64,000 nt of DNA. Source: Candidatus Pantoea bituminis. GTDB taxonomy: Bacteria; Pseudomonadota; Gammaproteobacteria; Enterobacterales; Enterobacteriaceae. Below are positions 37,792 to 62,841 of the stretch, piece after piece. A program made the position numbers and the translations under genes. How positions within the stretch are numbered: position 1 is the stretch's first letter; each line of letters begins with the position of its first letter. The stretch spans positions 62,001 to 126,000 of the forward strand of contig NZ_JAGTWO010000002.1 in assembly GCF_018842675.1 (NCBI RefSeq), read 5' to 3'. The notes under the pieces are model-generated. The model was not told the origin of the DNA, ran no database searches, and was given only the letters and a program-made list of their open reading frames with translations.

Positions 37792-38939
37792 ATGAAACGT
37801 GTGTCAGGACAATTTACCGAAACCGCCAGCTATGATGAAACGGTTCGTGCATTTATACCTGCACCTTTGCCTCCTGCTGCACCTGTTCTCGATCCTGTCT
37901 CTTATCAGGAACTCAATGAAAAGGCGGAAAAGTCGCTTGCCCGATTGTCCGGTATGTCAGGCCTGGTCTCCTCGAGCGAATGGCTTGTTTACAGTGCTAT
38001 CCGAAAGGAAGCTTTGCTCACCTCACAGCTGGAGGGAACCCAGGCAACGTTAACAGATATCTTCGATGAAGAAGCGGGGCTTTCAGTGACGAACGTTGAA
38101 GATGTGGAGGAAGTGACTAACTATCTGCGGGCTTATAAATTCGTGCACGATCAGATGAACTCTCCCTCAGGCCTTCCGGTTTGCGTACGCCTGCTGAAAA
38201 ATGCGCATCAGGTGCTTTTATCCGGTGCCCGCGGAGCCGTAAAACAACCGGGCGAAGTGAGATCGACACAGAACTGGATTGGCGGGACGAGACCGGGCAA
38301 CGCCTCCTATGTACCGCCCCCGCCGGAAGAGGTAGGTGAGCTACTGTCCGATCTGGAAAAATTCATACATGAGCCGCAACCCTCGCTGCCACCTCTGGTA
38401 CGTATCGCACTGGTACATGCGCAGTTCGAAACCATTCACCCTTTCCTGGATGGCAACGGGCGCATCGGCCGTCTGCTGATAGCCATGCTGCTGGAAGAAT
38501 GGCAGCTGCTGAAAGAACCCCTGCTTTACGTTTCCGGCTACCTGAAACAGCATCAGAGGTACTACTATCAGTGCTTAACTGATATCCGATCAAAGGGTGA
38601 CTGGGAACAGTGGGTGGCATTTTTCCTTGAAGCGGTCACTTTTTCAGCAGAAGAGGCGCAGCAGGGGATAATTAGGATTGCAACCTTGTTTGCCGACGAC
38701 AGAAAAAAATCCTCTCAATGAGCTCAACGTCGGTACACACCATCCGTCTGTTTGAATTCCTGCCGACGATGCCAAAGCTGACAGTTGAGCGTGCCGTTGA
38801 GCTGCTGGAGGTAACCTATCCGACAGCGAACAACGCCGTCAAAAGTCTGGTAGAAGCCGGTGTACTTGTTGAAACGTCAGGCAGGGCGCGACACAGGAGC
38901 TACGTTTACAGCCGGTACGTTGAACTTCTTCGCGACTGA
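37792..38939 (+). CDS. Fic-domain AMPylase with C-terminal winged helix (one frameshift)
   Basis: About 382 residues. N-terminal Fic_N region with SAIRKEALLTSQLEGTQATL, where TSQLEG fits the class II inhibitory motif (S/T)xxxE(G/N). Catalytic motif IHPFLDGNGRIGRLL near residue 217 has the His base and all GNGR residues. The C-terminal wHTH VERAVELLEVTYPTANNAVK is reached after a shift at 38703-38709 (seven A, eight needed for RKKILSMSS). Such proteins transfer AMP to target Ser/Thr/Tyr residues and are self-inhibited by the N-terminal Glu. Confidence 0.87.
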
Positions 38940-40873: not shown

Positions 40874-41902
40874 TTAGCCTGAGTGCTTTTCCATGAAGTC
40901 CACCATGGCACCTTTGTGCGCGTCAACATGGCGGATGTAGCGCATCAGGGTCTCCGGCTTTTTCCACGTTCCTTCCTGCATGATCTGCGCAACCGGATAG
41001 CCCTGTCCGGCCATGTCCTGTGCAGCACCAACGCGTGCACTGTGTCCGCTCCAGCCGCTGTAGCGATTCTTGTTGTTCGCTCTAAACTGCTCGGCTGAAC
41101 CCGACGTGCGCCAGGCCCGGGCAAAGATATCTTCAAGGGCGCGCGTGCTTAACGGCGCGTCAGATGAAAGCTGCGCCCGGTTTGAACGGTGCACACGACT
41201 GAATAAAAACGCATCCGGCTCGGCCGCCAGGCCAGCCGCGCTGATCCACTCTGCCAGCCGCTGCGTAGGCAGGGTACTCAGCGCCTTGATCAGTCCGCCG
41301 GTCTGTACGATGGTTTTGGTCCACGCCACATCTAGAATGATGCGACCGTCCGGCGCCCGCGTAACATCTCTCACGCGCAGGCGCGACAGCTCGCTGATAC
41401 GCAGAAGCGTGGCGTAAGCCACATGCAGGAACGCCAGGTCGCGGACTTCCTGCAGCCGTGCTGAGCCTGACCACTGCGCATCCAGCGCCAGCAGATCGGG
41501 CAGGCGGAAGGGAACGGCCTGCCCGGCGCGCTCGCCCGCGATGACGGCCGTACGATTTATCTTCTTTATCGTGCGGAAAACCAGCGGCGAAGAGTTAGGC
41601 GGCGTCAGTCCGGCGTTACGGTGTAACATCGAAATCAGCGCGGCATGTGCATTAACGGTTGATGAAGCCCGCCCGCTTGCCTGCAGGAACGTCAGGTAAT
41701 CGCGCAGATCGGCGGAAGACATCGGCAAAAAGGTCCTCTGGTTATCATCCGCCCACCGGTTGCAGGTGCGCATGACGCTCAGCAGCTGTCGCCAGGTATT
41801 GGGCGAAAACGCCTCCCTGTCCTGAACAAACTCCCTTAACCGCTCCCGGATGTCAGCATCGCCGGTGGCGCTAAGCGCCGCCAGCTGAGTCATTTTTGTC
41901 AT
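40874..41902 (-). CDS. cre: Cre-family tyrosine recombinase
   Basis: About 342 residues, strikingly like phage P1 Cre over its whole length: FVQDREAFSPNTWRQLLSVM (Cre has FRDRQAFSEHTWKMLLSV), LRDYLTFLQASGRASSTVNA, DLAFLHVAYATLLRISELSR and YSGWSGHSARVGAAQDMAG. All catalytic residues are seen: Arg in TLLRISE, Lys in WTKTIV, HSAR, Trp in GTWKKPE and Tyr in LMRYIRHVD. ATG 41902 matches the Cre start. A perfect 34-bp lox-type site lies 154 bp upstream. It should resolve plasmid dimers. A Cre-like enzyme from Pantoea (Panto/pox) has been described and may be close. Frame intact. Confidence 0.93.
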   Translation of the reverse strand: MTKMTQLAALSATGDADIRERLREFVQDREAFSPNTWRQLLSVMRTCNRWADDNQRTFLPMSSADLRDYLTFLQASGRASSTVNAHAALISMLHRNAGLTPPNSSPLVFRTIKKINRTAVIAGERAGQAVPFRLPDLLALDAQWSGSARLQEVRDLAFLHVAYATLLRISELSRLRVRDVTRAPDGRIILDVAWTKTIVQTGGLIKALSTLPTQRLAEWISAAGLAAEPDAFLFSRVHRSNRAQLSSDAPLSTRALEDIFARAWRTSGSAEQFRANNKNRYSGWSGHSARVGAAQDMAGQGYPVAQIMQEGTWKKPETLMRYIRHVDAHKGAMVDFMEKHSG

Positions 41903-41937
41903 GTTTGCCTGTTTAATGAACGAAACTGTTGTTGATC

Positions 41938-41996
41938 GCGCTACGTGAATTCTGGAAAGAAAGACGGGGGATAACCCGCCAGAATTCACGTAGCGC
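41938..41996. repeat. 18-bp perfect inverted repeat in the cre leader
   Basis: GCGCTACGTGAATTCTGG (41938-41955) and its exact complement (41979-41996), 23 bp apart, starting 36 bp upstream of the cre start codon. Too far and too long for a typical terminator. It may be an operator controlling cre or an mRNA hairpin. Confidence 0.75.
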
Positions 41997-42055
41997 TGCC
42001 GGTTTTCTGCGCCGCCTGAATGCGCCCATCTTATCGCAACGAGCTTGCCTTTGTC

Positions 42056-42089
42056 CTAACTTCGTATAAGTATAATTATACGAAGTTAG
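42056..42089. other. lox-type recombination site, perfect 13-8-13 structure
   Basis: Left arm CTAACTTCGTATA (42056-42068), spacer AGTATAAT (42069-42076), right arm TATACGAAGTTAG (42077-42089), an exact complement. The arms equal the P1 loxP arms (ATAACTTCGTATA) except for the outermost base, changed symmetrically in both arms. The spacer differs from loxP (GCATACAT), so it would not recombine efficiently with loxP. Placed beside the cre homologue as in P1. Confidence 0.93.
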
Positions 42090-42120
42090 TTATTTAATCG
42101 GTAGGAAAGGGACTGGGTTT

Positions 42121-42138
42121 GTATAAGTGTAATTATAT
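42121..42138 (+). repeat. Degenerate second lox core
   Basis: GTATAAGTGTAATTATAT matches 42064-42081 of the lox site at 16 of 18 positions, including most of the spacer, but the outer arm halves are lost. Offset 57 bp. Possibly a vestigial tandem lox or part of an accessory region. Confidence 0.55.
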
Positions 42139-42449
42139 AAGTCCAGAAAAATGAATATATGGACCATTACTATCGCGTTGTATTTACTTAAGTTATATCT
42201 AACTTGGAAATGGCAGTTCAGGCAATTGAAGCACTACTAGGTAAAACAAGGGGACCAAAGGTGATGCTGCAAGCACGTTCTATACTATCTCAGTAAAAAT
42301 TATTTGAGTGCATTCAATAGCTTGGACTAGGTAGGAGCCTACATATCCTTTCCCACAAAGGCGTTAGTGCTCAATGAACTGATAGGTTACAATAAGGCGT
42401 TATCGAGTGTGGCAGAGAGCAGTTTCTAGAAAATTTAGGAGTTCAATAA

Positions 42450-43577
42450 ATGCACGAAAAAGATAATTATGAAGATGCTATTGAGCTTGAGAATCAAGAT
42501 GAACTTGAGTTGACCTCGCATCCGCATCAAATGGACACTGATACGGAAGTGCGCATTGCCAAAGAACAATCGAGCGTATTTGAATTATTGAGAAAAGAGA
42601 GCAACGGAAAATTAGTCTTAGCACCTGACTTTCAGAGAAAAGATGTATGGGACAAAAAACACCAATCCGAGTTAATTGAATCAATATTAATGGGGATTCC
42701 TATACCATTAATTTACCTTTTTGAAGATGAAAATGGAATTCGTCAAATTATTGATGGCAAACAACGCGTGTCGGCTCTTAAAGAATATCTAAACAATAGA
42801 TTCCGTTTGACTGACTTATCAATGTTTCCTAAATTGAAAGGAAAGAAGTTCTCAGACATCCCACAATTGCTTCAGTCCAAGCTAGAAGATTATCAATTAC
42901 ATTGCTATATAATCCAACCGCCAACTCCAGAACACGTAAAATTCAATATTTTTGAGAGAGTTAATCGCGGAGGTATAAATCTTAACAAACAAGAGATGAG
43001 GCATGCGCTATATCAAGGTAAAGCGACTGATTTGATTCAAGACCTGGCGGAAAGTTATGAATTTAAGCTATCTACTGGCGGTGGAGTTAAACCTGAAAGG
43101 ATGAGAGACCGGTATTTAGTTCTTCGGTTCGTCAGCTTTTATTTATTGATGACCGAAAGGAATCCTTTTATTCATTATCGTTCTGATATTGATACTTTCT
43201 TGGCCTCAACCATGAAGTTTATAAATTCGAAAGCTACCGATGGTACAATTGAAAAAATCAAAGAGGCTTGTTTAAAAGGCATGGGAAACATCTATCATCT
43301 AATGGGAGGTGAGGCCTTCCGATTCAAGCCAAAGTCTGGTGGCAATAGAAGGCCAGTAAACATGGGCCTTTTCGAAATGCTTGTCTTTGCATTCAGCTTT
43401 GTTGATGCAGATAAGTTAGGGAATTATGAGATAGAAGATTATATAGATGATTTTAAAAGTAACTTTGAAGAACTTGGCATATTTTCAGGTTCAATTGACA
43501 CAAATGAATATGTAAAAATCAGATTTGATTTCGCGGCCGAAATAACAAAGGGCTTAAAAAATGCTTACTCAAGTTAA
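42450..43577 (+). CDS. DUF262-domain (GmrSD-N/ParB-like) protein, first gene of a three-gene AT-rich operon
   Basis: 375 residues. An acidic N-terminus (25% D/E over the first 30 residues), then the DUF262 core: LVLAPDFQRKDVWDKKHQSE, IPIPLIYLFEDENGIRQIID followed by GKQRVSAL (the DGxQR catalytic loop) and FNIFERVNRGGINLNKQEMR. DUF262 proteins hydrolyse NTPs and feature in type IV restriction (GmrS) and other defence systems. No C-terminal DUF1524 HNH nuclease is present. It overlaps the ATPase gene by 17 bp. GC content is far below the flanking genes. Confidence 0.85.
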   Translation: MHEKDNYEDAIELENQDELELTSHPHQMDTDTEVRIAKEQSSVFELLRKESNGKLVLAPDFQRKDVWDKKHQSELIESILMGIPIPLIYLFEDENGIRQIIDGKQRVSALKEYLNNRFRLTDLSMFPKLKGKKFSDIPQLLQSKLEDYQLHCYIIQPPTPEHVKFNIFERVNRGGINLNKQEMRHALYQGKATDLIQDLAESYEFKLSTGGGVKPERMRDRYLVLRFVSFYLLMTERNPFIHYRSDIDTFLASTMKFINSKATDGTIEKIKEACLKGMGNIYHLMGGEAFRFKPKSGGNRRPVNMGLFEMLVFAFSFVDADKLGNYEIEDYIDDFKSNFEELGIFSGSIDTNEYVKIRFDFAAEITKGLKNAYSS

Positions 43578-44610
43578 CATAAAAAATTTTAAAAGCATTA
43601 ATGACGAAAATTTAAGGCTAACACCTTTAACGATATTGACTGGTACTAATTCTTCAGGAAAGTCAAGTGTAATTCAAGCAATCATGTTAATGATCATGAA
43701 CAGCACTGAAAGTAACCAATTTAGTATGGAGAGTTTGCTTAGATATGTAAGTGAGTTTAAAACCATAAGAAACAAAAGAACAAATGCGAAATTAGTTGAA
43801 ATTTCATTACGTGACAAAGATGATGAAATCCATAGTGTTATTTTTAAAGACGATGATATTTTAAAGAACAGCAAAGAACTATATTATTACGAGCAAGCAA
43901 AACATAAGCAATTGCCTGAGATTTTGTATCTCAATGCAAATAGACTTGGTGCACAAGACTTTGTTCCTTCCTCTAATCGTAGAGTAGGAGAACAAGGTGA
44001 ATTTTTGTTCTCAACTTTTGAAAAAATAAAAACTGAGATAGCTGATGAGAGCTTAATAAAATTTGAGGATTCAAAAACCATATCCTTCCAAGTTGCTGAA
44101 TGGTTAAGCTATATAACTGGAACCACTTCTGAACTAAAAACAGAAAAAGTTGGTGAGCAGATAAACATTTACTTTAGCATCAAAGATTTAGAGGGTGACG
44201 TATCTCCTTTCAATCTCGGCGCAGGCATGAGTTATATAAGTAAAGTTATTATAATTTGTCTAATGGCTAAAAAGGGCGATTTAGTAATTTTAGAGAATCC
44301 AGAAGTACAGTTACATCCTAGAGCTCAAGCTCATTTAGGAGAATTCCTTACCTTTGTTGCAAATGGTGGGGTCCAACTTATCGTAGAAACACATTGCGAG
44401 CATTTATTAAACAAAATAGCTTATCAAATATTTGACGATAAGTTTTCTCACAACGATTTGGTTATACACTATAAATCAAATGTTGAGAGTAATTTTACCA
44501 CTCTATTAATAGATGAGAATGGAAGCTATACCGACTCGAAAGGTCAGCCAACTAGTTTTCCATCAGGATTTTTTGATGCAACTCTTAATGATCTTTTGAG
44601 CATGAGGTAA
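43561..44610 (+). CDS. AAA/OLD-like ATPase (DUF3696-type), second gene of the operon
   Basis: 349 residues. Starts VNIKNFKSINDENLRLTPLT with Walker A LTGTNSSGKSSVIQAIMLM at residues 27-45. Walker B is DLVILENPEVQLHPRAQAHL near 240, followed by LIVETHCEHLLN (H-loop) near 278. No TOPRIM domain follows, unlike GajA. The C-terminus PSGFFDATLNDLLSM matches DUF3696 proteins. Likely an ABC-type DNA or nucleoprotein sensor driving its partners. Overlaps both neighbours' boundaries closely (17 bp and 2 bp). Confidence 0.88.
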   Translation: MLTQVNIKNFKSINDENLRLTPLTILTGTNSSGKSSVIQAIMLMIMNSTESNQFSMESLLRYVSEFKTIRNKRTNAKLVEISLRDKDDEIHSVIFKDDDILKNSKELYYYEQAKHKQLPEILYLNANRLGAQDFVPSSNRRVGEQGEFLFSTFEKIKTEIADESLIKFEDSKTISFQVAEWLSYITGTTSELKTEKVGEQINIYFSIKDLEGDVSPFNLGAGMSYISKVIIICLMAKKGDLVILENPEVQLHPRAQAHLGEFLTFVANGGVQLIVETHCEHLLNKIAYQIFDDKFSHNDLVIHYKSNVESNFTTLLIDENGSYTDSKGQPTSFPSGFFDATLNDLLSMR

Positions 44611-44612
44611 CT

Positions 44613-45359
44613 ATGTTAGGGAAAATGGTTTTAGACAATTCCTTATTAATTGCTTATGAAAACAAAAAAGAATCAAAAAAATTTAAACTACTAATGAGGA
44701 AATTCACACATCCTTATGCGACTAACTGGAAGCAGATTAAGTCCGCATTGAAGGAAGGTCTAGAATTACCTAACCACGTTCAAATATTGTCTCAAATGGC
44801 AGGCTTGCCGGAATATGATGATGATCTCATCACTTTGGCATCAAAAACAACATTTAAAATAATTTTAACTGAAGATGCATCCAAAAACTTTCCATATGTG
44901 TATTTTAAAAATAACATGGTTAATAAAAACATTGTTTTTTCTTTATCAAGAACTGATAGCCGGCAAGACTTGCTAAGTTATTTACAAATGATGTGCGGTA
45001 ATGCCACAAAAATAACCATTTGCGATAACTATTTCTCTGAAAACTGGGCGGAAAATAACAAACTATTTTTTCGGGTATTCCCGAGAAAAGGGTTGCAAAT
45101 TGAATATGCCGAAGTTGCATCCGGAATAAATGCAAGAGCAAATAACTTAGAAATAACCAATACATTTCTGAATACTATTTGTGGAGACTGGACATCAAGC
45201 GTATCGGTACTTCAAAAATATTCAAATTGTCACGATCGCTATTTGTTAATTGAGTCACCCGAAAGCAAAATAGAGGTGATGCTATCAAGCGGTTTTCATC
45301 ATCTTTGGAAGGCTAATCCTAAGGAGATTACTTGCGTCTTTACAGAAATCCTAACTTGA
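44613..45359 (+). CDS. Unknown protein with C-terminal HDR motif, third gene of the operon
   Basis: 248 residues with no domain I can name. The N-terminal half has PIN-like spacing of acids (VLDNSLLIAYENKKESKKFK, then LPEYDDDLITLASK, IILTEDASKNFPYV). The C-terminal half contains IEYAEVASGINARAN and NCHDRYLLIESPESKIEVML then SSGFHHLWK, a His-Asp-Arg arrangement seen in some PLD-like and MIT_C-type domains. It starts 2 bp after the ATPase stop with a GAGGTAA ribosome site. A nuclease or effector role is possible. I am not certain of either. Confidence 0.7.
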   Translation: MLGKMVLDNSLLIAYENKKESKKFKLLMRKFTHPYATNWKQIKSALKEGLELPNHVQILSQMAGLPEYDDDLITLASKTTFKIILTEDASKNFPYVYFKNNMVNKNIVFSLSRTDSRQDLLSYLQMMCGNATKITICDNYFSENWAENNKLFFRVFPRKGLQIEYAEVASGINARANNLEITNTFLNTICGDWTSSVSVLQKYSNCHDRYLLIESPESKIEVMLSSGFHHLWKANPKEITCVFTEILT

Positions 45360-45506: not shown

Positions 45507-47490
45507 TTAGGAAGCTTTATTTGTAGATGGTAATACAGGTAAAAACTGCTTATGTTTCTGTTCTAGGTAAACAGTAGACGTATCGCGTGTAGCCTCGTAC
45601 CGAAGTTGCTCACTAAAGAAACTTAGTTTTGACCTAGCGGCATGTAGCACTTCTGCCCAAGTCATAACCCATACTTCAACGTTAGCTTCTGCGTCGTCAA
45701 GCGTTTTACCTTTAGGCCATCCTCTCATCCGCGCGCGGCGCATACCATATTCATCCATAGTGTTGGACACTGCGATAAAAGTCCATCGGGTATTAGCATG
45801 GTCAAAACGCTCATCGCTGCTAACTGCAAGGGCATACTTTTCAACTTGGCCTATAACGTCATAATCAATTTTCTGGGAGGGCCTCTTCAGCTCGACCACC
45901 AGATACTCGGTTACGCCTTCCGTAGGCTGCCTTGCTTTTGCGAACATCAAATCGATGCGCCCCTGTCGTCCGTCCGGTAAAAATACGGGGTCGTTCGATC
46001 CCTCGTCCTCACGTTTGCCCAAGTGTCTGATGTGTTTCTGCAGGACTTCTTCAAGCCGGTTTTCTGAACCTGCAAGATAGAAATCTTCACGGAAAATCCA
46101 AGCCTCCCTTTCCAGAATCTTATGCAGTTGATCCCTTTCCAAGAGTGTTTTTTGGTTTCTCTGTCATGCACAAGGTTATCCAGACCGTTGATAAAATTCA
46201 GCCTGTCTGCAACGATTTTAGATGCGCTGATGATTGACGAAAGCGAGGTGCTTTCCAGCATTTCGGCTAATTCGTCCTGCTCTTGTGCTTTCAGCTCAAG
46301 AACTTCAGTGATAATTTTCTGCACAGAGGCCGGGTTTTGTTTGATAGCTTGTGACAGGAGCATAAAAGTGAATTTTTTGGTTTTCTTATCTGATTTTTCG
46401 AAATTTTTCAGATAACTTTGAACGTTCACTGCAAGGATATCAAAAACTTTTCTTTCCACCGATGTCGTCGGGTCTTTCCCGGTATCTCCAGCATAAGGAT
46501 AGATATCCTGAGCCTTCCATTCATCAATGATTCGAGTTTTCTTCTGGAAAGCCTTATCAATAAAATAAAGCCTTGCGCGGTTGATGACGGCGTCTTTGAT
46601 TGCCTTAAGCTCCGGGACTAGGTCGCCAAGCGCCACCTCGTTGCGTTCACTAAGCGTTTTAAAATAGTCGCATCTGGCATAAAGTGTGAATTCAAATCCT
46701 GGCGCGCGGATGAGCTGCCCCAGCTTTTCTTTATGATAGGAAAAACCGAGTGAGTCGCAGTAATGAAACTCTCGCTGCACACTTTTTTACGCCATTCAAT
46801 AATCGACATTGAGACACCGGTGGTCTCATCTTCAGAGACTTCAACGTCGCCAAGGTCAAAATCAGCCTTGTCAAGCCACGCATCTCGCGGATCCAAGTCC
46901 CGCCCGTCAAAAACTAGCTTGCGGAAAGGGTACTCAGTCAGAAACAGGGCAAATTCCATAAGAAGGTCGTTATGGGAATTTTCACTCAATAGATCAATAG
47001 CATGGTCGCTGACGTTATAAATTTCGACCTGTGTCCCAGTCTGTTCGCCCGAGACTTCCGTTACATCGCCGATCACCAGATCCTTAACGCTGTTTGCATC
47101 CGCCGATATCGCATAGGCATAATGTTTTTCACCTTTTTTAGCTACCGTCTGCCAGACAATTTTTTCCCCGAGCGAAAGAGCCTTAAATCTGCCTTTCCCG
47201 TATTGGCCATGTAAAGATCTGTCGCCATTTGCCCTAGCATGTCTTTTCCAAGATTCTCCTAGGTTGCCGAAGAGTTCTGTTACTCTGGCATGTTCGATCC
47301 CTCCACCGGAATCTCTGACGAAAATGGAATCAATGTTGCCCGTTAAAGCGTGTCGGTTGATAACAACCTCCACGCGCTGAGATTTCGCATCGAATCCGTT
47401 CCAGATTAACTCACTGATAGCAGAGACTGGCTTTGCTGAGGCAATATCGGTGATGAGATCTGCGCCAGCCTTGACGGTTATTCTTGACAT
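45507..47490 (-). CDS. GHKL ATPase fused to a PD-(D/E)XK nuclease (two frameshifts)
   Basis: About 660 residues. The Hsp90-like ATPase has the N-box ISELIWNGFDAKS, G1 DSGGGIEHARV and G2 GQYGKGRFKALSLG. A helical middle follows (KIITEVLELKAQEQDELAEM). The C-terminus carries GRIDLMFAKARQ and EYLVVELKRPSQKIDYDVIG, the D...ExK nuclease core. Start MSRITVKAGADLITD at 47490 has an AGGGAAAAG site. Shifts: 46783-46788 (six A on the coding strand, seven needed for RKKSVQREF) and 46148-46153 (six, seven needed for KKTLLERDQLHKIL). MutL-like logic suggests DNA surveillance in defence. Confidence 0.8.
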
Positions 47491-47619
47491 ATCTTTTCCC
47501 TGCGGTCGCTTTTTGTAAATACTGCCATAAAGTGGCTGTCCGGTTAAGTTATTAACCGGTAACTCTTTCGGATGGGAATATCCGCGCTCCGTTGCTTTTC
47601 GAAACGTATCAGCATTGGC

Positions 47620-47989
47620 CAACTGATTCCTGATAAAGACATTTCTCTACTCCGCCAAAACTCAGCAAGAGCGCAGAGCGCCTGTCAAAGTGTTTGTGAC
47701 ACATTTATTACCTGTAGGTGAGTTCTTTAACGCCTATCCGATTAATACCCGCTGCGGCAGGATCAGTCATAAGCCGTGCTCTATGAACGGTTCCAGGGAT
47801 GTCTATCCAAGCCACAGGCGCTTTATTTTCACAAACATTAACCGGATAGCTTCGTCACCATACATTAAGCTTGCAGCAAATAAAGCCGGCGTATGCGTGA
47901 GGGATTGAGATACGATTGCCCAGGATTCAGTTCTCACTAAAGGACTGCGCGCGGAGTATTCCAAAGTGACCGGTTACCACCATGCGCGG
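47620..47989. other. Intergenic region
   Basis: About 370 bp between the GHKL gene leader and the amidohydrolase remnant. Short open frames here have no recognisable features. No repeats or terminators stand out. It may include more of the decayed amidohydrolase N-terminus. Confidence 0.4.
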
Positions 47990-50295: not shown

Positions 50296-51557
50296 TTATT
50301 CAAAAACGAATGGGTTGAGGAATTGTCTTTTCCAGAAGAGTCGGCGATCGATTTCGGTCAATTGGGCTTCTTCACACACTTTATCCCAGTGCTCATTTAT
50401 TCTTTCAACCTGCTCATCAAAGATTAGCGCTGCTGCTTCCCGGGATAACATAAAGTTATGCGCGGTCTCTATACACGCACTTCGCTGGCTAAAACGATTA
50501 TTCCCTGTGATAAACATGGCTTGTGTGGCCTCATTGCCAGCTCGCCCCTGTGGGCAGATGTCATAAGCTGGCGCCAATGACAGCCTCTCACCATTCCAGA
50601 AAGCGGCATGATTTCGGGCGTGATCGTCAGTATTACCACAAAGAATGTTGAAGCAGATTCGTGCAAAAAGCTCACGCAGTGTCTCTTTCGGACGTTCGAA
50701 ACGCTTGCGAATCAAATGAGCAAAGTCTTCATAACTGGCATAGCGTGCCATCATGTCATCGAGGCCAAACAGGGTTAAGGCTGACACCATTGAACGTCTT
50801 GTCCATCCAGTTTCGGATTTAATACGGTCGGAGCGTTCAATAAGCAAAATATCCTTGCCCGCCGCATGCGCCATTCGCACGGGTGCGCAGTCCAGCCCAC
50901 ATAATGCGGCGAGCCGCATGGCAATAAATTCTGCTTTCACCACATTGTAGAGATCGTTACTCGCTGAAAACTTTGCGATGTATTTTTTACCCTGTTCTTC
51001 AATCAAAGCTTTGGGGCGCGCGCCACCAATTGAACTACCGTGAAACAGTGCCTCATCGAGTTCAGGGGTGAGGGGGACCCATTGTTCCACGCGTTCAGCG
51101 GAGCGCAGCAGTTCTTCTATCTCCACGTTTTTGGCATAACGCGGTTCATACTCCGTGGCAGAACATTGGAAATCCAGTGCGCTTATTCGGTCAGAACCGG
51201 ACTCCAGCAATAAGTCAGCTCATCCAGTAAAGCTGTATCCGTATCAGCACCGCGCATTCCTAACTTACGGTTGATGATTACACGCCGACCCCAGGCGTCT
51301 GGTGCGCTATCGCGGATCGATGATGGCATTGTTAAACCTGGCGACAGAGGCAACATTCCTGACTGGAGAGGCAATTCAGGAAGATAAATCGGGATGGCCG
51401 GAGAGTGATCGCGGACGCGTTCCAGGTAACTACGGCCATAGTTAAACAGTATGTTTCGGGCATTATCATAACTCAGTCGGCCAGCCACAACAGGTTTAGT
51501 TTCACCGGGTAGCCAAATCCATACAAATGCCTGCTGTGGGAGTTGTTCAGAAGTCAT
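50296..51557 (-). CDS. hipA: HipA-family serine/threonine kinase toxin (one frameshift)
   Basis: About 420 residues. The N-terminal subdomain begins MTSEQLPQQAFVWIWLPGET followed by KPVVAGRLSYDN. ATP/phosphate loop region SSIGGARPKALIEEQGKKYI near 150. Kinase core LLIERSDRIKSETG and NILCGNTDDHARNHAAFW (the HxDxxxxN-equivalent catalytic loop), then LAPAYDICPQGRAGNEATQA. The frame breaks at 51209-51210, where one more T gives DELTYLLESGSDRIS. HipA phosphorylates a tRNA synthetase (GltX in E. coli) and induces persistence. hipB overlaps the start. Confidence 0.87.
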
Positions 51558-61159: not shown

Positions 61160-62841
61160 ATGAAAATAAATAACCTGGGAATAGGAACCCGTCTGGGTGC
61201 TGGTTTTTCACTGGTACTTATTCTGATGATTGCAATGGTCATTACTGGAGGATGGCATCTGCGCGGCATGATGCAGGCCACAAAAAGTGTTACGCATGAT
61301 TATTTAGTGCGGGAGCGCTTATCGACCGAATGGTTATCCATCATTGACACTAACGCCGCTCTGGCCCTTGTCGTAATGACCTCACCCGCTGAAAGTATTA
61401 AACAATATGCTTCAGAGGAGATGAAGAAGAACTCTGAGCGAGCCAGCGCGGTACAAAAAAGCTGGAAAATATGATCACGTCTGATCACGGCAAAGAATTA
61501 ATGAAGGGAGTGGGTGAGGCACGTAAAGGGAATACCGCAGCGCGCAATGTTGCCCTGAAACTCAGTGCTCAGGGAGATGTGAACGCGACCGCTGAAGTTA
61601 TTCGTAGCCAGTTGCTACCTGCTATGCGCGCTTATTCCGATGCTGTTCGTGCTGTGGCTAACAACCAGCAAAGGCTCATTAATGAGAATGGTGGTCATAT
61701 CCAGAGTGCAGGTACATCTGCCGTTTGGACACTGGTGGCGGTAGGTATTGTTGCGTTAATTATGGGCTCGCTTCTTGCATTGCTTATCACGCGTAGCATT
61801 ACGCGCCCACTGATATCTGCTGTGGGTATAGCGCGCGAAGTGGCAGCCGGTAATCTGACCGTGGATGTGCGGGTAGATTCTCATGATCAGTTAGGGCAGT
61901 TGATGGCCGCCCTGCGTGAAATGACTGAAAGTCTACGTAAGACTGTGCAGAAAGTGCGTGCAGGATCAGACAGCATAGCCTCGGCTGCTGATGAAATTGC
62001 CACCGGTAACGAGGATCTCTCATCCCGCACTGAAGAACAGGCGGCGAGCGTGGAAGAAACAGCGGCAACACTCGAGGAACTGACCGCCACCATCAGCAAT
62101 ACCGCATCAAACACGGCGCAGGCACGTCAGTTTGTTTCTGAAACCGCTGGCATTGTAAAAGAGAATGGCGAGCTGATGAATGATGTGTCCACCCGGATGA
62201 AGGAGATTTATGAATCCTCCTCCAGAATGTCTAATATTATTTCTGTCATCGATGGCATTGCTTTCCAGACCAACATACTGGCCCTCAATGCGGCTGTGGA
62301 AGCTGCTCGCGCGGGTGAATCTGGCCGGGGGTTTGCTGTGGTCGCCGGTGAAGTACGCACACTGGCCCAACGCAGTGCTTCCGCTGCACGTGAAATCAAA
62401 ACGCTGATAGATGAATCTGTATCGCGCATTAACGCAGGCACCACATTAGTGGACAAGGCTGATAAGGGCATGACGAGCATCGTTAGAAACGTGCAGAGCA
62501 TGGAACAACTGATTAACGAAATTGCTCAAGCCAGCCGGGAACAGAATGATGGCATTGAGCAAATCAACTGCGCCATGGAGCAAATCGATACGACTACTCA
62601 GCAAAATGCTGCTCTGGTAGAACAGTCTGCGGCTGCTGCAGCCTCCATGCAGGAACAAACCCAAGTGTTGCAGGAGATTGTGAGCATGTTTCGCTTAAAT
62701 GAAGGAAGCGCTATAAACCGTACGCAAACGGTCAGCGTTCCTGTCTCGGTCACCACTCAGCAGCAATTTAGCACTGTCCGTCAGGCACCACGACTACCTG
62801 GCAAAACGGCTGCTACAGAGGGAAGCTGGGAATCATTTTAA
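61160..62841 (+). CDS. Methyl-accepting chemotaxis protein (one frameshift)
   Basis: About 561 residues. TM1 at residues 10-32 ([19 protein letters not shown]), periplasmic four-helix ligand domain, TM2 near residue 195 ([20 protein letters not shown]), HAMP linker, methylation helices ([20 protein letters not shown]) and the signalling tip [39 protein letters not shown] (split). The C-terminal tail ends EGSWESF, a CheR/B-docking-like WxSF. The frame breaks at 61455-61460 (six A, seven needed for [14 protein letters not shown]). Ligand unknown. It may sense a sugar, given the xyl neighbour. Confidence 0.9.

Follow-up and report, generated by a model that had tools for sequence, protein, structure and literature searches.

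An Apparent Menshen (NsnABC) Defense Operon with a Less Common Type of NsnC, Located next to a Cre/lox Module in Candidatus Pantoea bituminis

In this report, we describe a compact three-gene operon found in a 64,000-nucleotide stretch of DNA from Candidatus Pantoea bituminis (RefSeq assembly GCF_018842675.1, contig NZ_JAGTWO010000002.1, forward-strand positions 62,001 to 126,000). The whole of this stretch is referred to as the window, and all coordinates are given relative to it. The host assembly is composed of five contigs (5.2 Mb), and the operon is located on contig 2. Three plus-strand open reading frames (ORFs) encode proteins of 375, 349, and 248 amino acids, designated here as NsnA, NsnB, and NsnC (Table 1). 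The first two genes overlap by 17 bp (43561-43577), and the second and third are separated by 2 bp (44611-44612), in agreement with the layout given by the first-pass annotation of this DNA. The low guanine-cytosine (GC) content noted there was also confirmed, with a value of 0.345 for the operon versus 0.483 for the window. An equally low GC content was found in 0.25% of the sliding 2910-bp segments, a count that includes segments over the operon itself. No RNA family was found at gathering scores in an Rfam scan.

Table 1. Positions of the operon genes and of the features directly upstream, in window coordinates
Feature	Position	Strand	Evidence
nsnA, 375-aa DUF262 protein (GmrSD_N, ParB/Srx-like) with a D102-G-K-Q-R106 motif and without HNH	42450..43577	+	PADLOC NsnA 9.6e-110, 365 bits; PF03235 3.3e-26
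nsnB, 349-aa ABC ATPase head of the OLD/AAA_21 type, lacking TOPRIM	43561..44610	+	PADLOC NsnB 6.3e-84; AAA_15 7.2e-24; AAA_21 2.3e-20
nsnC, 248 aa, predicted PIN-like (about 1-100) and PLD-like (about 104-248) domains, H207-x-R209-x4-E/D214	44613..45359	+	PADLOC NsnC 9.1e-71
Operon leader, common to Klebsiella plasmid copies; AGGAG-like ribosome site directly 5' of ATG	42353..42449	+	megablast; ribosome site by eye
Cre-like tyrosine recombinase, 371 aa, outside the defense operon	40874..41989	-	PF00589 4.1e-18; 43.5% identity to P1/P7 Cre
lox-like site with spacer AGTATAAT between two perfect 13-bp arms	42056..42089		sequence search
Second lox-like palindrome, diverged, with 3 mismatches in its arms, 57 bp on from the first	42113..42146		sequence search

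The three proteins match the PADLOC-DB models for NsnA, NsnB, and NsnC over nearly their full lengths. Residues 10-368 of NsnA align with positions 23-381 of the 385 in the profile (365.4 bits), residues 1-347 of NsnB with positions 1-341 of 345, and residues 1-246 of NsnC with positions 1-241 of 242. The next-best models scored 103 bits versus 281 for NsnB, and 12.5 versus 236 for NsnC. The NsnA, NsnB, and NsnC genes, which we take to be the components of Menshen, a system reportedly described by Millman et al. in 2022, are adjacent here in the order A-B-C on one strand. The window shares with Menshen the sequence of a DUF262 protein, an OLD-like ATPase, and a third gene; it differs in that its NsnC belongs to a less common type, found in 3 of the 13 A-B loci sampled (window included) and already represented in PADLOC as PDLC03880. 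From these profile matches, it is almost certain that the three genes encode NsnA, NsnB, and NsnC of an already described phage defense system, which is likely Menshen. Among the papers searched, none contained both Menshen and NsnC, and none of 13 listed papers paired Menshen with an Nsn name.

The description of the first gene product as a DUF262 protein without an HNH domain was upheld; GmrSD_N is matched in NsnA, and neither HNH nor DUF1524 was detected with Pfam. All 10 of the NsnA-like proteins that were scanned have GmrSD_N, including the HNH protein of locus L058. The residues D102, G103, Q105, and R106 are invariant in the 25 aligned rows. No solved structure was found for NsnA by a sequence search. 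For NsnB, the assignment as an ABC-type ATPase without TOPRIM was retained; the DUF3696 family was matched only below threshold (18.5 bits versus a cut-off of 22). The motifs of NsnB include a Walker A sequence (G28-x4-G33-K34-S35), a signature-like NxGxG at 218-222, E/D245-N/S246-P-E248, and H278; the residues G28, N30, G33, K34, G220, G222, P247, E248, L251, H252, P253, and H278 are invariant in 25 of 25 rows. Among solved structures, a sequence search with NsnB matched an OLD protein over only the first 45 residues. In ABC ATPases the catalytic glutamate usually follows directly after the Walker B acid, and in NsnB this position (246) is occupied by Asn (21 of 25 rows) or Ser (4 of 25). Because neither residue is the usual glutamate, NsnB would be expected to act as a switch rather than as an enzyme with fast turnover.

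NsnC was aligned as the window protein together with 61 of the 69 proteins found, among them an Escherichia coli protein (P0038) of 51% identity. The HDR motif reported for the third protein is invariant in all 62 rows. The canonical catalytic motif of the PLD family is HxK-x4-D (HKD). This motif was not found in the 62-row alignment; in its place, the arginine of the HxR motif is present in 62 of 62 rows, and position 214 is Glu in 55 and Asp in 5. A PLD-like fold is predicted for the C-terminal domain, and the model of the N-terminal domain is a weakly supported PIN-like one. With the window NsnC, neither Pfam (above the cut-off) nor NCBIfam (at E ≤ 1) gave a family match. Across the alignment, at most 7 of the 62 proteins had a Pfam family in common, and the best E-value for that family was 0.0023. 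A sequence search for a solved structure was similarly without a significant match (best 0.41).

Conserved three-gene synteny, which the first-pass annotation had named as possible support, was observed. When genome contigs were searched with the NsnC alignment, 11 loci were recovered, all of which have the order A-B-C, in Pseudoalteromonas (two), Moritella, Psychromonas, Psychrosphaera, Enterovibrio, Vibrio, Marithrix, Thiomargarita, Cycloclasticus, and Bacteroides. The same order was found in a Klebsiella pneumoniae plasmid (L002), in one viral contig (L018), and in a Campylobacter peloridis plasmid. A megablast match to the Klebsiella plasmid spans 42353-45353 at 86.7% identity, and the shared unit is thus approximately the operon and its 97-bp leader. 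The ratios of nonsynonymous to synonymous substitution rates (dN/dS) against this copy were determined to be 0.05, 0.06, and 0.11 for nsnA, nsnB, and nsnC, respectively, and all three genes are under purifying selection. About 6 kb downstream of the operon, the Klebsiella plasmid has a gene annotated as a retron St85 reverse transcriptase, with a gene for an AAA ATPase after it.

The NsnC type of the window is rare. It was found only in its own genome among 339 genomes of the class by a profile search, and only there among 392 genomes of the family by a single-sequence search. The operon DNA had no match in the E. coli genomes searched. Carriage by a phage record was considered and rejected, since no nsnC match was obtained in 50,697 phage records, though the viral contig L018 has the operon. 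Relatives of NsnA are more widespread (32 of 369 genomes of the class, own genome included). NsnB was seen in 4 of 29 NsnA-relative loci, in stretches of 1.8-4 kb each, with L018 viewed in addition; after extension, it was found at six of eight NsnA places, the other two being L056, where the contig ends, and L058, with the HNH protein. Since NsnB was found at few of the NsnA loci examined, most of the NsnA-like matches are not established as Menshen.

Ten A-B loci from nine genomes (L051-L055, L057, and L068-L071) have a directly downstream ORF that is not matched by the window-type NsnC profile (E ≤ 0.01). These third ORFs, one of which (L055) is split into two, have no Pfam match at E ≤ 0.05, and all of them match other PADLOC NsnC models with best E-values of 3.2e-11 to 2.9e-100. 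Two further loci from the A-B order search, L066 and L067, carry the window-type NsnC; these duplicate L009 and L008 and were not counted as new. Judged from these profile comparisons, the third gene is a swappable part between otherwise similar A-B pairs.

The operon was compared with other known systems, and its separation from Gabija, from GmrSD, and from simple OLD systems in the first-pass annotation proved correct. A DUF262 domain with a DGxQR motif is shared with the type IV restriction enzymes GmrSD, BrxU, and SspE, as these are described in a review (PMC10952713). The window operon differs from them by the lack of HNH/DUF1524 and by a separate ABC ATPase and third gene, and membership in GmrSD was rejected with only GmrSD_N matched in the first protein. 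NsnB has an ABC/OLD-type ATPase head related to those of AriA from PARIS (1.2e-25) and GajA from Gabija (3e-13). It differs by the lack of TOPRIM, and the partner genes of the window operon are unmatched. Membership in Gabija was rejected, given a match of at most 3e-13 to GajA and no TOPRIM or UvrD-like helicase in the Pfam lists for the three proteins. PD-T4-2_A is the second-best model for NsnA, at 113.5 bits versus 365.4 for the NsnA model; there was no PD-T4-2 match for NsnC, and none for NsnB among the best 25 of 111 families. The predicted fold of residues 104-248 (approximately) of NsnC is that of the PLD-family nucleases SauUSI, NucT, and the NgoAVII R protein, from which NsnC differs by its HxR-x4-E/D sequence in place of the HKD motif and by an identity of 8-15%.

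The operon adjoins a Cre/lox module, as was originally recognized, in which a Cre-like recombinase gene is accompanied by a lox-like site at 42056-42089. This site was the sole match in the window at three or fewer mismatches, and none was found in 100 shuffles; the inner 12 bp of its arms are the same as in P1 loxP. Related cre genes lie on one Erwinia pyri and two Pantoea plasmids, where these 12-bp arms recur with a single mismatch in each site and around different spacers. In the stretches searched, the Erwinia pyri plasmid and two Pantoea plasmids besides that of SS70 have one lox-like site each, and Pantoea sp. SS70 (L006) has two, separated by 75 bp. The cre-lox homology ends at the lox site (42088-42091) in three of the four Erwinia/Pantoea plasmid stretches, at 42091 for Erwinia pyri, and earlier, at 42018, in the fourth (L006). 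The conserved cre-lox unit therefore breaks off at the place where the defense operon is located. Such an end is equally expected if cre and lox are a conserved unit, and we make no claim that lox brought the operon. The Panto/pox system, as described in PMC4957104, uses a different site with only 13 of 34 bp in common with loxP. A perfect 18-bp inverted repeat with a 23-bp loop (41938-41996) is located between cre and lox, and the region homologous to Pantoea sp. SS70 plasmid DNA extends through it.

The nuclease-ATPase gene that was said to follow the operon was recovered in part. A GHKL-type ATPase piece is the only clear family match (7.1e-14), but the gene (45507-47622) is on the minus strand and is split over three frames (46618-47622, 45947-46780, and 45507-46142), and the match to a PD-(D/E)XK nuclease was not significant (0.12 or worse). 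Plasmids of Streptomyces, Sinorhizobium, and others, 40 records in all, carry relatives of the ATPase piece, with 30-36% identity in the eight rows listed. Farther out are a Fic/DOC family protein with Fic_N at 37792-38721 and, as judged by eye, a putative HipA-type kinase at 50296-51210 with a helix-turn-helix gene upstream.

We propose that NsnA would sense phage infection via its nucleoside triphosphate (NTP)-binding DUF262 domain, that ATP-driven dimerization of NsnB would pass the signal on, and that NsnC would be the effector, acting by means of a predicted phosphodiesterase domain of the PLD-like kind. By analogy with other DUF262 proteins, NsnA may bind NTP together with phage DNA, perhaps in a modified form. 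NsnC would cleave nucleic acid, with the PIN-like part possibly catalytic. As a whole explanation, a Menshen-type operon with NsnA as sensor, NsnB as relay, and NsnC as effector is favored by a modest measure, and the division of labor among the three proteins is close to an even call. It is rather doubtful that this NsnC type is a new immune effector in which a PIN-like and PLD-like fusion with a noncanonical His-x-Arg site is triggered by the DUF262-ABC pair as a slow, one-shot switch.

A number of observations weigh against the favored explanation. The NsnA model is unspecific on its own and gives 320 bits for a DUF262 protein with a C-terminal HNH domain and no adjacent NsnB (L058:5965-7302), and the identification as Menshen thus rests on the three genes together. 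NsnC may be inactive, with Arg for the usual Lys and mostly Glu (55/62) for the usual Asp. The acidic positions of the PIN-like domain are not conserved, residue 8 being Asp in 30 and Ser in 30 of the 62 rows. The best structural match of NsnC is MITD1, whose domain is a binding and noncatalytic one, and the Foldseek comparison with SauUSI gave a TM-score of 0.34 of the query length and a root-mean-square deviation of 5.2. A Campylobacter coli plasmid has, in an 8.5-kb stretch, a 194-residue relative of NsnC without NsnA or NsnB (L072:3965-4549); it is shortened, and the NsnC model is matched only from position 58. In a table of the review cited above (PMC10952713), Mokosh and Azaca are listed with PLD-like domains and Menshen is not. 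According to the same review, one component of Menshen has a TOPRIM (OLD) domain; the window differs in this as well, since none of its three proteins matched a TOPRIM family at E ≤ 1 with Pfam. We do not treat TOPRIM as defining because the NsnB model, of only 345 positions, is matched from end to end. Finally, the exchange of the third gene is what one would look for in an effector, but it could also fit a sensor.

This last point lends itself to a Menshen system with the roles reversed. The exchangeable NsnC would be the sensor, with its PLD-like domain binding a ligand as in MITD1, and NsnA would be the effector that nicks or degrades DNA once NsnB fires. We regard this arrangement as possible but unlikely: no nuclease domain is recognizable in NsnA with Pfam, the HDR motif is invariant as an active site would be, and NsnA is itself variable, ranging from 345 to 650 amino acids between loci. 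A reading in which the operon no longer defends, as a relic of Menshen or as a plasmid-stabilizing module, is very improbable. It is suggested by the rarity of the operon in the family and class genomes and by the solitary NsnC of the C. coli plasmid, but opposed by three intact frames, low dN/dS values, and conserved motifs. The first-pass annotation had left open whether the operon equals a named system, and its candidate was to be refuted if all three genes were assigned to a characterized one, as they now are. For a different, unnamed three-gene ATPase system that shares only domains with Menshen, the unspecific NsnA model and the lack of a profile relationship between the window NsnC and the third proteins of the ten other A-B loci would be suitable, but we reject it as very unlikely, given the assignment of all three genes to PADLOC models, the wide score gaps for NsnB and NsnC, the prior inclusion of this NsnC type as PDLC03880, and the matches of the other third genes to NsnC models. 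The operon is a real, intact, and ordinary member of a described defense system, with a less usual type of NsnC.

NsnA as sensor, NsnB as relay, and NsnC as effector remains the preferred arrangement. We predict that Menshen retains its NsnA-NsnB pair and exchanges the third component among proteins that are unrelated to one another. One less common type of NsnC is predicted to have a PLD-like domain in which the HDR motif is invariant, and the mechanism of Menshen may thereby be tested by single-residue changes.
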